DNA from: a virus
Direction: 5' to 3' (one strand)
Virus record (IMG/VR): IMGVR_UViG_3300030389_004419
Span: 1-38,150 of that record
Length of the DNA stretch: 38,150 bases
The notes beneath the pieces were generated by a model. The model saw only the letters and a program-made list of their open reading frames with translations, did no database searches and was not told the origin of the DNA. Below are positions 17,274 to 24,150 of the stretch, in pieces. Each line of letters begins with the position of its first letter. Positions within the stretch are counted from its first letter, which is position 1. The position numbers and the translations under genes are program-made.

Positions 17274-17375
17274 TCAACCTGATATATAACCACAATTATA
17301 GCACTTATATTTACAATTTATAGTTTGAACAATAGCATTGCATATTTCACAATTTTCTTTTTTAAACATATTCAT
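17274..17375 (-). CDS. Micro zinc-ribbon protein, 33 aa
   Basis: The start codon overlaps the RuvC stop by one base (TAATG), showing translational coupling. The product begins MNMFKKENCEICN and ends with CKYKCYNCGYISG, giving five Cys: C9-x2-C12, C21, and C25-x2-C28. That is enough for one zinc ribbon with almost no other sequence. Such tiny ribbons can contact nucleic acids or other proteins. A role alongside the resolvase is suggested only by coupling. Confidence 0.7.
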   Translation of the reverse strand: MNMFKKENCEICNAIVQTINCKYKCYNCGYISG

Positions 17376-17851
17376 TAGAACATCATCTCCTTCGCATAAT
17401 GAGCTATTAACAATGAATCACTTATATTAAATGTTACTTTAATATTAGGGAATAACTTTATAGCTTTTTCCTTTAAAGCTCTTTTTCTTTCTGTTTTTGT
17501 TAATTTGCCTATTTCAAAATATTTAATCCATTTTTGAGGACTAACCTCAGCATACTCTATATCATAAGATGCTACAATGCCTCTCCATAAACCGTAATTA
17601 GTACCAAATTTAAATGCTGATCTTCTTGAATCAGTAGGAAAAGCATGAACAAATTCCATACATACTTTTGTATTTGATAAGCTATCTACTTGTTCAAGCA
17701 TATTCATAAACTCTCCAGCCATTTTTTCAGGAGTATCAGGGCATTTTTTAGAAACTACACCATTTTTAGTTATAAGTGTAATTCCTCCTTTTGCACCAGG
17801 ATCTATTCCTATTACATTTATGTTTCTTTTTTTAGGGTTATTTTTTGGCAT
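17375..17851 (-). CDS. RuvC-like Holliday junction resolvase, 158 aa
   Basis: Belongs to the RNase H-fold RuvC superfamily, which cuts four-way DNA junctions and so clears recombination or branched replication products before packaging. The first strand VIGIDPGAKGG carries the catalytic Asp (D17), the VCMEF strand the Glu (E66), and the C-terminal NISDSLLIAHYA helix another acid (D145). The length is typical. It overlaps the DnaB helicase gene by 14 bases and is coupled downstream to the micro zinc ribbon. Key acidic residues are all present, so activity is likely. Confidence 0.9.
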   Translation of the reverse strand: MPKNNPKKRNINVIGIDPGAKGGITLITKNGVVSKKCPDTPEKMAGEFMNMLEQVDSLSNTKVCMEFVHAFPTDSRRSAFKFGTNYGLWRGIVASYDIEYAEVSPQKWIKYFEIGKLTKTERKRALKEKAIKLFPNIKVTFNISDSLLIAHYAKEMMF

Positions 17852-19169
17852 TTCTAAAGTCCTCTATTGATTGATATAATTTTGCTTTGTCTCCATTAAA
17901 TCCTAATCTTGCAGTTCCAGAATTTCCATATCTTACTTTTGAACATATAGCCTCAATAACATTTGGTCCTAATCTACTATCTGTGGTATGTATCTTATAA
18001 TCATAATAAACAAATATAACATTTTCAGCCACTTGTTCTATTGATCCTGATTCAGCTAAATCAGACAATCTTGGCTTAGCATCTCCCCTATGTTCCAACA
18101 TTCTATTTAATTGGCTTACTAAAATTACAACACAATTATTATTCTTTGCTAACCATTTGTAATCATTTACAATTTTTTCCAATTGTAGTCGCCTTTGATC
18201 TATTCCATTTTCAGGGCTAATTAATTGTATATAATCATCTATAATTACATCAGGCTTAAACTTTTTTATTTCACTTGCACCATTAGAGAAATTATATATC
18301 TTATCGAACATTAAAAATCTGTCCTTATTGTATTTTTCCTCTATTACTTTTTTAGTACGTTCTATTTCTTCAACATCGCCATTTTCAAATATTCCTTGTC
18401 TTATCATCATATAAGATAGATTTTCACTTTCAAGAGTAATAAGCTTTTTTAGCATCTCTACGTTTGTCATTTCTCTATTAATCATTAACACTTTGTTCCC
18501 TGCATCAACACAATTTTTAAGCACATTTAATATCATTGTAGTTTTACCATGACCAGGTCTACCACCTATAATAGATATTTCTCCTCTTGTCATTCCACCA
18601 CATAAATCGTCTATAGATTTAAATCCTGTTTTTATAAGATTCTCTTTACTATTTTTAATACTTGATATGGCGTTCATAATCTCATCACTAATATTAAATT
18701 CTCCACCAGGTCTAATGGATATCATTTCACTTATTAAATTATGTGCAGTATTTAAAGAGGAAAATACATCTTTATTACCATGAGCCTCTTGTTGAATATC
18801 TTTGGTTTTTTCTAATACCGTTCTTACAAGATACTTTTCATATATCTTTTTAGCATATACAATGGCTGTTTCACGTGTTAAATTAGAATTAGTTAATCCT
18901 GTTATGAAATATTCATTAACACCTTGCTCTTTATCATCATCAGAAAGGGCACAACATACGGTTATCATATCTACGTGTTCATTGTTTCTTTCCATCTTAT
19001 TGATAATATTAAACAACAAAACACTTTTTTCATCGTATAATGTCTTGGTATTTGCATAGACTTGAACATCTGTTAATAATGTTTTGTCCTCTAAAATTGC
19101 TCCAAGCAGAGCAAATTCAGCATCTACAGCATTAGGCTCTGTCATCTCCTTGTAAGTCTTTTCTCTCAT
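17838..19169 (-). CDS. dnaB: DnaB-like replicative DNA helicase, 443 aa
   Basis: Hexameric 5'-3' helicase that unwinds the fork. The N-terminal region (VDAEFALLGAILEDKTLL) is the DnaB N domain, which contacts primase. The RecA-type domain has Walker A GGRPGHGKTT near residue 200, MINREMT as the H1a-type motif with Glu, VIIDDYIQLI as Walker B, VVILVSQLNR as the Gln-containing motif III, and a C-terminal KVRYGNSG-type arginine region. All motor motifs look intact. An upstream AGGAGAAAAAAC supports this start, so its first 38 bases overlap the ABC-GNAT gene. No primase is visible nearby, so a host primase may be recruited. Confidence 0.95.
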   Translation of the reverse strand: MREKTYKEMTEPNAVDAEFALLGAILEDKTLLTDVQVYANTKTLYDEKSVLLFNIINKMERNNEHVDMITVCCALSDDDKEQGVNEYFITGLTNSNLTRETAIVYAKKIYEKYLVRTVLEKTKDIQQEAHGNKDVFSSLNTAHNLISEMISIRPGGEFNISDEIMNAISSIKNSKENLIKTGFKSIDDLCGGMTRGEISIIGGRPGHGKTTMILNVLKNCVDAGNKVLMINREMTNVEMLKKLITLESENLSYMMIRQGIFENGDVEEIERTKKVIEEKYNKDRFLMFDKIYNFSNGASEIKKFKPDVIIDDYIQLISPENGIDQRRLQLEKIVNDYKWLAKNNNCVVILVSQLNRMLEHRGDAKPRLSDLAESGSIEQVAENVIFVYYDYKIHTTDSRLGPNVIEAICSKVRYGNSGTARLGFNGDKAKLYQSIEDFRNAKK

Positions 19170-20238
19170 TTGTTTTTTCTCCTATGTATTCATGAGAGTA
19201 ACATATTCTTGTATCAAGTTTCCAATTGTCAAATTTCCCTTGTTTGCTGACAATCTTACCCGAAGAACTTGTTGCTCTCCACTTTTTTGATTCATTTCTA
19301 TACCCACCTAATCTTGGGTGTGCAGTTCTGGAATAGTATCTTTTACCTTCATCTATATGCAATTGTGCTATTGCATCAGACAATCTTGGCCCAACGCCAA
19401 GTCCTTGATAGTCTGGTAATATAACAGTTCTATGCTCTCTATATGCATTTTTAACTGTTCCTGATGGTAAAGGTAATGATGAACTAAACCCTATTAAAGT
19501 ATCTTCCCATACAGCTCCATAACATCTGGCAGCCTTACTAACCTCATTACTTAAATAGTGATGTTGAGCAAAGAAGGTCCATAACGAAGTCGTTCCACGA
19601 TAGATTGTAATGGTGATTTTTGGTCGCCTAAGCCACCTCCCTTGTGCATAACTACCATCAAGAGTATCGAATACCCAATCAGGTTGTAACCATTCAAGTA
19701 TATCTCTATGACAAGATGCTATAACTATTTTATTTATATCAGAACGATCAACAAAACGTCTTAAAGAACGAGAAACTGCTTTAGCTACTACTCTATCTAC
19801 TACAGATGTAAACTCATCTATAACAGCATTATCTTTCATTCTACGAGCAAGATCAGCTCTAAACTTTTCTCCTGTTGATAGTACGTGATAAGGTCGCATC
19901 CAAGACGGAGTAGTATTTAATCCTACAGCAGATAGTCTTTCAATAGCAACCTCAGGGTTTTCAAAATGCGATACAATGGCTTTGTTTCTGTTCCAAGATA
20001 TTTCTTCTTCTTTGCCAAATTCATCTAACATAGATGATTTCCCTGATCCACTTGGACCAACTATAAGCCCTATTTTAAAATCATCAGGAATTTTAGGGAT
20101 CCCCCACAATTTAAACTTAGATGTTCCATCAAACTCATAGTCAAAGCATTGCGATGCATACTCTGTATATTCATCTGTTTCTACAGATACAGATACCTCT
20201 GTTTTGTTTTCGTGTTGAAATAAAGATAAATCACTCAT
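19132..20238 (-). CDS. ABC-type ATPase fused to a GNAT acyltransferase-like domain, 368 aa
   Basis: Residues 1-200 form a compact ABC ATPase: Walker A GPSGSGKSS (61-69), a signature-like LSTGEKFRADLARR (120-133), Walker B AVIDE with catalytic E142, and H-loop H177. No membrane segment exists, so it is not a transporter. Residues 205-345 look like a GNAT fold, with the acyl-CoA loop pattern in LPDYQGLGVGPRL (274-286). They also carry HHYLS (226-230) and TAHPRLGGYRNESKKW (305-320), which recall Mom-type DNA-modifying GNAT proteins. The architecture resembles COG2401, an ABC ATPase with a predicted acetyltransferase. It overlaps dnaB and a zinc-ribbon gene. Nucleic acid modification is a reasonable guess; the substrate is unknown. 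Confidence 0.85.
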   Translation of the reverse strand: MSDLSLFQHENKTEVSVSVETDEYTEYASQCFDYEFDGTSKFKLWGIPKIPDDFKIGLIVGPSGSGKSSMLDEFGKEEEISWNRNKAIVSHFENPEVAIERLSAVGLNTTPSWMRPYHVLSTGEKFRADLARRMKDNAVIDEFTSVVDRVVAKAVSRSLRRFVDRSDINKIVIASCHRDILEWLQPDWVFDTLDGSYAQGRWLRRPKITITIYRGTTSLWTFFAQHHYLSNEVSKAARCYGAVWEDTLIGFSSSLPLPSGTVKNAYREHRTVILPDYQGLGVGPRLSDAIAQLHIDEGKRYYSRTAHPRLGGYRNESKKWRATSSSGKIVSKQGKFDNWKLDTRICYSHEYIGEKTNERKDLQGDDRA

Positions 20239-20437
20239 AAACTTCCTTTATATTTTGATCTTTACAAGAAGGGCAAGTATGTCTTTTCTTGCCTATTGAG
20301 GGAATTTCAGAATAATATATAATTCTTTTTCTTTCATCATAACAATATCTTGATTCTCTGGCAATACCATAACACCAAACTCTCTTACAAGATTTACAAA
20401 ATTTTATCTTGGAATCAGTTCGATAGTTTTCTGCCAT
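20231..20437 (-). CDS. Zinc-ribbon protein, 68 aa
   Basis: Contains CKSCKRVWC (C14, C17, C22) near the N-terminus and CPSC near the C-terminus, giving a four-Cys zinc-binding site separated by about 35 residues including several Tyr and Arg. A GATAAAGGAAAAT leader supports the start. Its end overlaps the ABC-GNAT start by 8 bases, so the two are likely made together and the ribbon could serve as a nucleic acid-binding partner. That pairing is inference from overlap only. Confidence 0.75.
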   Translation of the reverse strand: MAENYRTDSKIKFCKSCKRVWCYGIARESRYCYDERKRIIYYSEIPSIGKKRHTCPSCKDQNIKEVYE

Positions 20438-21057: not shown

Positions 21058-21603
21058 TTAAAATGGTATATCAACATCATATACAGGTGCATCTTCCCAA
21101 GTAGTTACACTTTTAACTCTTAACCTTTTAACAGTTTCTCCCTCTGTATTTTTCCAAGGTTTTTCAAAATCTACTACAACATTTACTCCTTTGTGTAATA
21201 AATCATCTTCAGTTAAATCGGGCAATTGACTTACCATTCTCTTTTCTCCATTGACATTGATTTCTACTTCCTTACAATCAATACCAACAGCCTTAGCTAA
21301 ACTTAGGTATCTTCCATTGCCACCTGGATTAGCTTGAAAAGTATCGCCATTACTTGGTGCTAAGAAATAAAATATTCCTGTAGACCATACTTTGCGACCT
21401 TTAAAGCCTTCATCAATTAACTCTGTTTCAAAGTTAAAGATTTTAGCCATATACTTACCACCACCTATATCTCTCTTGTTTACTTGAACTTGAGTAATAT
21501 GACCTTTATATTTACCTGCAACAAGCTGTTGAGGCGATTTATCTTCTTTAGGGTCATAATAATTAGATGGTGTCATTATATCAATTTCTGATACGTTTGC
21601 CAT
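21058..21603 (-). CDS. Single-stranded DNA-binding protein-like, 181 aa
   Basis: Likely coats single-stranded DNA in replication and recombination. Strands such as GKYKGHITQVQVNKR and AKIFNFETELID suggest an OB-like beta barrel, and the protein ends in a DVDIPF tail that closely copies the acidic DDDIPF tip bacterial SSBs use to bind partner enzymes. The middle GGNGRYLSLAKAVGID resembles phage DUF669-type or SSB-like proteins rather than canonical SSB. A GGAGAAAAAAC leader supports the start. It is next to the annealing protein 21720-22259, a common pairing. The tail is clear evidence; exact family is less sure. Confidence 0.75.
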   Translation of the reverse strand: MANVSEIDIMTPSNYYDPKEDKSPQQLVAGKYKGHITQVQVNKRDIGGGKYMAKIFNFETELIDEGFKGRKVWSTGIFYFLAPSNGDTFQANPGGNGRYLSLAKAVGIDCKEVEINVNGEKRMVSQLPDLTEDDLLHKGVNVVVDFEKPWKNTEGETVKRLRVKSVTTWEDAPVYDVDIPF

Positions 21604-22802: not shown

Positions 22803-23389
22803 TTTATCTCCTCGTAGATATGTGTTGTTGTGTCTGTTTTTGTGTAACATTTTAGACAATCAATACAATTGCCGAAACAATTAGTTTTGTTGTCTTTTTT
22901 AGTTTGTACTATAAAAACTTTGTCAAAATACATAGGCACATTAGTTTCTTCATCTAATTTCACAGCAGAATAAACCAATATTAAATTACTTGGCTTGCCA
23001 ATAGCCATTATAGCTTTCCATACCAACCCTTTACGTTTAGTCCATAGAGTAAAAGTCGTATTTGGCGCAAGTGAGCATATCTTAAACAGGTTAATAGTAT
23101 GATTAAGATTGATTAGTTCTCCATGTGCAGAAAATCGCACATACAATGCATTTGGTGGTTTTGGTAAGTATTCTGATGGGTGTATCTTTTTACTTAAAAA
23201 CTCCCCATACTTTTGAAATGGTGCATCACACATTTTTCTAAATGTTTTTAGCATATTAATTGAATAACAACTACCACAAATACTATCTTTTTTCTGACTC
23301 ATAGCCTTGCAGAAATCGTTGTTTAAGGGCGATGTATTTAAAGCAGGGATACCCTTTAATTTCCCTGACATAACACTATATTTAATCAT
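22799..23389 (-). CDS. Mycobacteriophage gp88-like Cys-containing protein, 196 aa
   Basis: Matches the phage Gene product 88 style: an N-terminal GIPALNTSPLNNDFC segment, a CGSCYS motif (C38/C41) followed by MLKTFRKMCD, a VRFSAHGELIN strand, WTKRKGLV, and a C-terminal Cys cluster (CFGNCIDCLKC). The Cys arrangement could hold a metal or Fe-S cluster. The family is widespread in phages but its biochemistry is unknown to me. The start codon overlaps the nuclease stop by one base, and the gene is coupled by ATGA to the next, so all three are made together. Confidence 0.7.
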   Translation of the reverse strand: MIKYSVMSGKLKGIPALNTSPLNNDFCKAMSQKKDSICGSCYSINMLKTFRKMCDAPFQKYGEFLSKKIHPSEYLPKPPNALYVRFSAHGELINLNHTINLFKICSLAPNTTFTLWTKRKGLVWKAIMAIGKPSNLILVYSAVKLDEETNVPMYFDKVFIVQTKKDNKTNCFGNCIDCLKCYTKTDTTTHIYEEIK

Positions 23390-24150
23390 TATGGTCTCTC
23401 CTCACAATAATCTTTGTAATTGCAATAGCTACATTCCCATTTCTTTACAGGGGATACACCGTCCAAAAATGGTGGTAATGTATCTAAAGCTTTTGCTTGT
23501 TTGTGTATCCTATTCACACCATACCAAAAATCAACAGAATGATCAATATAATCCATTGAAACCTCTGTTGTACGGATCATAGATGTGTCTTTGTTGTAAT
23601 AGACAAGAAACAGACCGTCCAATCTACCAAATTCCTCACGAATTGCATGACCATAAATGGACAACTGCATCTCTTGATGAATAGATGGATCAGTCTCTCT
23701 GTTAGCTTTTCTACCAAATTTGAGTTTGTATGGATATGATGCGATAGATTTAAAATCATAGACATAAACCTTGTCATCACTCATACGAACAACCAAGTCA
23801 ATATACCCTCGAACATTGATCTCAGGGATTTCAATGTATTTTTCAATAAAATTTTCCCTGATATATATATTTTCTTTTTCTTTTGCTTCTTTTCTTTTTC
23901 TTTTAGAATCCAGCTCAATTGCATTTTGCAGATCCTCGTGGATAATTTGACCTAAACGAAATATTCGAAATGTTTTGCGATTAGGGAGATTTGTAGGCTC
24001 TACATCTAAACAAGTCTCAATGAATATTTTTCTCGAACACATACCCGATGAAGATGCACGATACATCTTCTTGTCCGATGGGTTATTCTTCTTCCACTCC
24101 TCAGAAAGATGATCAATGTAATTGCTGTATATTTCCTCGATTTTTATCAT
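23389..24150 (-). CDS. Cas4-like PD-(D/E)XK nuclease with Fe-S cluster cysteines, 253 aa
   Basis: RecB-family nuclease. The active site is visible: H71 in QIIHEDLQ, D118 in RGYIDLV, D132-F-K134 in VYVYDFKS, and the QLSIYGHA helix near 162-169 with its Gln and Tyr. Four Cys fit a 4Fe-4S cluster: C38 near the N-terminus, then C240, C243 and C249 at the C-terminus, the Cas4/AddB layout. It likely makes single-stranded tails for the annealing protein. There are no cas genes or CRISPR array nearby, so it is a phage recombination exonuclease. Residues 83-94 (KRKRKEAKEKEN) are a low-complexity insert whose DNA is repeated at 28762-28796. Confidence 0.88.
   Translation of the reverse strand: MIKIEEIYSNYIDHLSEEWKKNNPSDKKMYRASSSGMCSRKIFIETCLDVEPTNLPNRKTFRIFRLGQIIHEDLQNAIELDSKRKRKEAKEKENIYIRENFIEKYIEIPEINVRGYIDLVVRMSDDKVYVYDFKSIASYPYKLKFGRKANRETDPSIHQEMQLSIYGHAIREEFGRLDGLFLVYYNKDTSMIRTTEVSMDYIDHSVDFWYGVNRIHKQAKALDTLPPFLDGVSPVKKWECSYCNYKDYCEERP
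23870..23904 (+). repeat. 35-nt pyrimidine-tract repeat, copy 1 (antisense within nuclease gene)
   Basis: By direct comparison this T/C-only tract, with a single G, is identical over 35 bases to 28762-28796. Here it is the complement of codons 83-94 of the nuclease and encodes the Lys/Glu/Arg-rich insert. Confidence 0.85.

Follow-up and report, generated by a model that had tools for sequence, protein, structure and literature searches.

The DNA analysed here, referred to as the window, is a viral sequence 38,150 nt long in which the terminase, capsid and tail region lies on the plus strand and the replication block on the minus strand. The replication block starts at its upstream end with the gene for a Cas4-like PD-(D/E)XK nuclease (23389..24150; PF12705 2.5e-11, phrog_1706 2.3e-22), followed by genes for several small proteins, a zinc-ribbon protein, an ABC ATPase-GNAT acyltransferase fusion of 368 amino acids (ABC-GNAT), the replicative helicase DnaB (17838..19169; PF03796 2.6e-49) and a RuvC-like Holliday junction resolvase (17375..17851; phrog_1770 4e-24) that is part of the same syntenic block; all of these are encoded on the minus strand. 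The ABC-GNAT gene (19132..20238), supported by its ORF, profile, alignment and AlphaFold2 model, is a single ORF of 368 codons without interruption that reads from 20238 to 19132. The original prediction had the gene, its span and its key residues right, but its strand has to be corrected to minus; a reading on the plus strand was rejected because of many stops. The placement in the replication module, with Cas4-like, DnaB and RuvC-like neighbours, was confirmed, and so was the overlap with dnaB, which starts at 19169 and shares 38 nt with the end of the ABC-GNAT gene.

The zinc-ribbon protein next door (68 aa; 20231..20437, minus strand) had been thought to be coupled to ABC-GNAT. The overlap of 8 nt with the start of the ABC-GNAT gene is real, but the zinc ribbon was rejected as a conserved partner. 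A scan with the protein itself found no viral relatives; homologues of 39-42% identity were found by synteny in L374 and L376-L378, where they are located elsewhere in the replication blocks, and none of the relatives' 17 loci examined carries an ABC-GNAT gene. Zinc ribbons also lie upstream of the ABC-GNAT genes in L083 and L087, but these are members of other families.

ABC-GNAT is one protein in which both domains are complete, and their motifs as well as their folds are conserved. The profile of phrog_11143, a family without a named function, matches over the full length (residues 13-357, 1.2e-111), well outside what chance would give, and the AlphaFold2 model has a pLDDT of 91.3 and a pTM of 0.86. 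The soluble ABC ATPase domain comprises residues 9-204 (19627..20214, minus strand like all features of the protein). In Pfam this half stays under the cut-off with only P-loop hints, and a PDB sequence search with the protein returned weak ABC matches only, but the domain is clear by phrog_293 (1e-12) and by its fold, residues 9-201 aligning to the dimeric NBD MJ0796 (1l2t) with a VIA-align Z of 13.5 and 3.6 A over 170 residues. Conservation was counted in an alignment of 84 homologues, in which G61, S63, G64, G66 and K67 of the Walker A motif GPSGSGKSS (residues 61-69; 20032..20058), S121, G123 and R127 of the ABC signature LSTGEKFRADLARR (residues 120-133; 19840..19881), D141 of Walker B together with the catalytic E142 (19813..19818) and H177 of the H-loop, or switch (19708..19710), are invariant. 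The GNAT acyltransferase domain (residues 207-354; 19177..19620) is recognised by its fold and by Pfam Acetyltransf_1 (25.4 bits vs a cut-off of 20.7); its aligned residues 208-359 reach a VIA-align Z of 14.1 to 1y9k and of 13.4 to the acetyl-CoA-bound structure 6ao7. GNAT motif A, the CoA pyrophosphate-binding loop, reads QGLGVG (Q278-G283; 19390..19407), with Q278 and G279 invariant and G281 and G283 nearly so. The HHYL motif (H226-L229; 19552..19563) is located where the first GNAT helix ends, and its residues H227, Y228 and L229 are invariant together with W220 and F223; we regard the motif as contributing candidate acceptor-side residues. R270 and W320 are further invariant positions on the GNAT side. 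Every residue named beforehand (Walker A 61-69, signature 120-133, E142, H177, HHYLS 226-230 and TAHPRLGG 305-312) is correct. The claims of a complete soluble ABC ATPase and of a GNAT-like acyltransferase in the same protein were thus borne out, and the structure prediction suggested for both halves yielded a C-terminal domain that folds as a GNAT with its CoA motif intact.

Homologues are deposited as 'ABC transporter', as siderophore/hemin importer or as 'hypothetical protein', and several of these annotations would agree with a transporter subunit that has strayed into a phage. We consider the probability of this negligible: the ABC domain is fused to a GNAT, no permease was found beside homologues in the annotated loci examined, and no transmembrane protein is present in the module. 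The latter had been stated before and was corroborated by a hydropathy scan of 20 module products, in which the highest mean 19-residue hydropathy was 1.23. A soluble ABC ATPase in a replication and recombination block, beside DnaB, RuvC and a Cas4-like nuclease, could also serve DNA repair or recombination in the manner of SbcC/Rad50 or UvrA, the GNAT being a passive or regulatory add-on. Such a function appears very improbable, because the CoA-binding and putative acceptor-side residues of the GNAT are invariant across 84 sequences, which argues that this domain is under selection, and because no nuclease partner is conserved beside ABC-GNAT. A role in anti-phage defence was rejected, as the PADLOC matches on the window protein span short ATPase stretches only.

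ABC-GNAT proteins form a large family, with relatives in 77 phage records, at least 594 in viral contigs and 467 in a one-genome-per-species set. Lactococcus phage P335, Nonlabens phage P12024S and the Gordonia phages NHagos and Jace are cultured members whose hosts are harmless. A peptide pattern derived from P0001 alone found no close relatives, and alignments were required. In the tree the window protein falls inside a well supported (97/95) group of 45 rows, mostly viral sequences without ParB, and most ParB-linked members are found elsewhere. A GNAT coupled to an ABC ATPase has previously been predicted to perform an uncharacterised acyl modification on a DNA base, with phage pT24 named as an example (Iyer et al. 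2021, PMC7824862); there the prediction is restated and credited to Iyer et al. 2013. Judged by its sequence, the window protein belongs to this predicted ABC-ATPase/GNAT DNA-acylation family (phrog_11143). The protein of the Tenacibaculum phage pT24 is 36% identical to it over 96% of the length and likewise has the ABC ATPase ahead of the GNAT. The window gene is, however, a single unbroken ORF within a replication module, whereas the pT24 ORF has an in-frame stop after WNGVPV (L004:5757-5759), past which the same frame continues. To our knowledge, no chemistry is known for any family member, and the literature searched contained no experimental test of the predicted DNA-base acylation.

Some members of the family are split. 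In L005:5450-5552, L022:4453-4555 and L017:4456-4558 (Streptococcus phages Javan141 and MismyG, Lactococcus phage P335), and also in L019, ABC and GNAT occupy separate reading frames, that of the GNAT being -1, and the ABC/GNAT overlap of 103 nt is identical in the three loci listed first. In the split members no start codon precedes the HYL motif in the GNAT frame, and the overlap contains slippery heptamers (A_AAA_AAT/AAG or G_AAA_AAG); programmed -1 frameshifting that yields an ABC-GNAT fusion is therefore predicted.

Relatives of the window phage were gathered by their DnaB, which gave 31 informative loci, some of them near duplicates. The gene order is conserved: a Cas4-like gene, a homologue of the 181-aa protein of the window (21058-21603), a variable position directly upstream of dnaB, dnaB and ruvC. 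In 21/31 loci the variable position is occupied by a DNA methyltransferase from one of three Pfam families, namely N6_N4_Mtase (15 loci, two sequence groups), D12 adenine (4) and C5-cytosine (2); the remaining 10 hold only small or unknown genes. An ABC-GNAT gene is found in this position in the window only: none of 17 loci in a first set carries the gene, and in 0/32 loci does it fill the position. Conversely, the window encodes no homologue of those N6_N4 and D12 methyltransferases that were compared with it. The methyltransferases are enzymes unrelated to ABC-GNAT, and the likeness consists in the same genomic position and presumably the same purpose. That unrelated enzymes swap in one position suggests a shared job, the marking of phage DNA, and since ABC-GNAT occupies the exact position of the relatives' DNA methyltransferases, its most likely role is to attach an acyl group to the DNA of its own phage and so conceal it from the defences of the host. 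The nearest viral relatives of ABC-GNAT are often located beside DnaB or primase genes.

Other branches of the family point to DNA modification by different neighbours. In the Komp branch of Mu-like phages a Com gene lies just upstream of ABC-GNAT in 30 of the 71 loci with sufficient upstream DNA, a ParB gene in another 30, and in no locus both. The transposable, Mu-like Pseudomonas phage Komp_PAO1_1 encodes a transposase, a DNA transposition protein and Gam, and its gene order is tail-fibre genes, a Com zinc ribbon (PF10122 9e-21), a 49-aa ORF, ABC-GNAT and a Formyl_trans_N gene. This position resembles that of mom in Mu, which also follows the tail-fibre genes. Matches to PF10122 confirmed another four Com genes (4e-16, 2e-16, 5e-14 and 3e-9). 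Com activates the translation of mom (PMC6483171), and the gene behind com in phage B3 encodes a DNA methyltransferase; com thus marks DNA-modification genes. In cellular or prophage loci a ParB gene lies at most 600 bp upstream of ABC-GNAT in 61 of 72 cases, and ParBc domains are frequently fused to DNA methyltransferases (PMC12783734). Many cellular loci continue downstream with a terminase gene and are for this reason likely prophages. No ParB gene was found upstream of ABC-GNAT in the window or in any of 72 viral loci close to it, so that the ParB/Srx gene or tail module is a common but not a family-defining companion. A fusion of ParB to an N6_N4 methyltransferase is encoded downstream of ABC-GNAT in L050:7079-8323.

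At their C-terminus the ParB partners carry a segment, some 32 residues long, resembling a beta-alpha-beta unit. In Mu-like members the segment also occurs as a stand-alone ORF of 41-49 aa (L010:3768-3893, L013:3870-3998, L015:3858-4007), placed upstream of ABC-GNAT either behind Com or with no Com before it; the window does not have it. The segment may be what actually contacts the ABC-GNAT enzyme. A Porphyromonas phage copy of the stand-alone ORF is annotated as 'acr candidate protein'. In one branch the ABC-GNAT gene is overlapped or followed by a Formyl_trans_N gene (L015:5116-5733, L013:5125-5598, L016:1826-2473 and most of L186-L265). Its product could possibly perform a second step on the acyl group, and one might speculate that the group transferred in this sister branch has a free amine.

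The GNAT structures closest to the model include the protein acetyltransferases RimI and Naa50, and this would fit an enzyme that acylates proteins for host takeover, as exemplified by the Rac acetyltransferase of phiKMV-like phages, or that acts as a toxin; its ABC domain would then be a switch. We nevertheless judge a protein target improbable in view of the location of the gene in the replication block, where it replaces DNA methyltransferases, of its linkage to com and ParB, and of the terminase gene that commonly comes next in cellular loci.

The original prediction had described the protein as Mom-like. In the sense of a family this did not hold: PF25680 (Mom) gave no match to the window protein at E 0.1 or 0.001, HHalign of the GNAT half against Mom gave a probability of 0.2-1.5%, and no Com is present in the window, where the zinc ribbon has no match to PF10122. 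Membership of the window ABC-GNAT in the Mom family was consequently rejected. The likeness to Mu Mom (PF25680; PDB 8bv8) lies in the GNAT fold and the phage DNA-modification context, in an HY pair that both proteins carry toward the N-terminal end of the fold, about the end of the first helix, and in the com-mom operon of Mu, since Mu-like relatives of the window gene place ABC-GNAT behind com. In contrast to Mom, the window protein has an additional ABC ATPase and is encoded without Com. The structure 8bv8 was absent among the 50 fold matches listed, which carries no weight either way. A true Mom gene (PF25680 5e-38) begins 33 bp after ABC-GNAT in L099:3123-3770 and L101:5577-6224. With ABC-GNAT nearby in only 1/79 Mom loci, this pairing represents one lineage, and the two genes were rejected as habitual partners.

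A relation to the archaeal COG2401 architecture had also been proposed. The comparison was made with a single, partial archaeal protein, which we take to be of the COG2401 kind although its record is not labelled as such. It agrees with the window protein in that it combines a GNAT with an ABC ATPase of related sequence (7.9e-13). It differs in its reverse domain order, with the GNAT before the ABC domain, and in an NPFFEKVGF motif that it has in common with the GNAT of a T5-like phage and that the window protein lacks. In T5-like phages the ABC and GNAT genes are separate and lie side by side; in their operons a pair of ParB genes precedes ABC, and GNAT-like or unnamed genes come after it (L006:3497-6394, L020:2494-5444, L021:2214-5680). 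A search for archaeal COG2401 proteins in 41 genomes with a T5-like GNAT as a query gave no match, a result that is uninformative as the search had no positive control.

TmcA, the tRNA(Met) cytidine acetyltransferase, also combines an ATPase module with a GNAT and acts on the amino group of a nucleobase, and its structure 2zpa is among the Foldseek matches to the ABC-GNAT model (rank 48). Its ATPase is, however, a helicase-type module and not an ABC domain, and its gene context differs. By the same ATPase-plus-GNAT logic ABC-GNAT might acylate bases of tRNA or rRNA and thereby tune translation or shield phage or host RNA from tRNA-cleaving defences. P-loop ATPase-acetyltransferase fusion proteins are conserved in the minimal genomes of tiny archaea (PMC3655853), a hint that at least some distant relatives may act on RNA or on a housekeeping substrate. 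For the window protein we regard RNA as an unlikely target, since the context (methyltransferase position, com operons, ParB partners) favours DNA and no translation gene is conserved beside ABC-GNAT in the loci examined.

We therefore favour, with a probability of roughly three in four, a function of ABC-GNAT as a phage DNA-modification enzyme that catalyses an acyl-CoA-dependent, ATP-gated and replication-coupled acylation of a base and counters restriction. The C-terminal GNAT, whose QGLGVG pocket is intact, would take the acyl group from a CoA thioester and hand it on to an amino group on one of the bases of the phage DNA. The ABC ATPase at the N-terminus, acting without transport, is expected to dimerise when ATP binds, and the dimer might clamp or deform the DNA or control whether the base can reach the GNAT site. 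Given the placement in the replication module and the overlap with dnaB, modification would occur while the DNA is copied, and packaged genomes would then resist host restriction or other DNA-sensing defences. ABC-GNAT would thus stand in for the DNA methyltransferase that relatives encode in the same position. That DNA is the substrate, and not RNA or protein, is an inference, and so are the identities of base and acyl group, the part played by ATP and the benefit against restriction. It counts against DNA acylation in the window that its branch has neither ParB nor Com, that the placement upstream of dnaB is seen in the window alone and that 10 of the 31 loci have no methyltransferase there. 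The idea of an acylase directed against restriction, as first noted for this gene, is supported by the methyltransferase position and the com operons, but acylation itself is not a new proposal, since PMC7824862 states it for the protein class. The gene-neighbourhood evidence, on the other hand, is new here, measured against the 2013 prediction as it is cited in that paper.

ABC-GNAT is, on strong evidence, a real and well conserved enzyme of a published predicted class that now has strong contextual support. The chances seem about even that it installs, under the control of ATP, an undescribed acylated base in phage DNA, perhaps elaborated by the formyltransferase in the sister branch (e.g. 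to an N-formylated aminoacyl group), and that the family thus accounts for a widespread hypermodification not yet directly seen. The family is common, with hundreds of relatives in each collection scanned. If DNA acylation is true, many phages and prophages carry a modification that no current catalogue lists; this would bear on how phages evade restriction and on the sequencing of phage DNA and might provide a new tool for DNA labelling. The main interest is that a published prediction becomes testable at once, as the genomic contexts lead to cultured phages that are members of the family.
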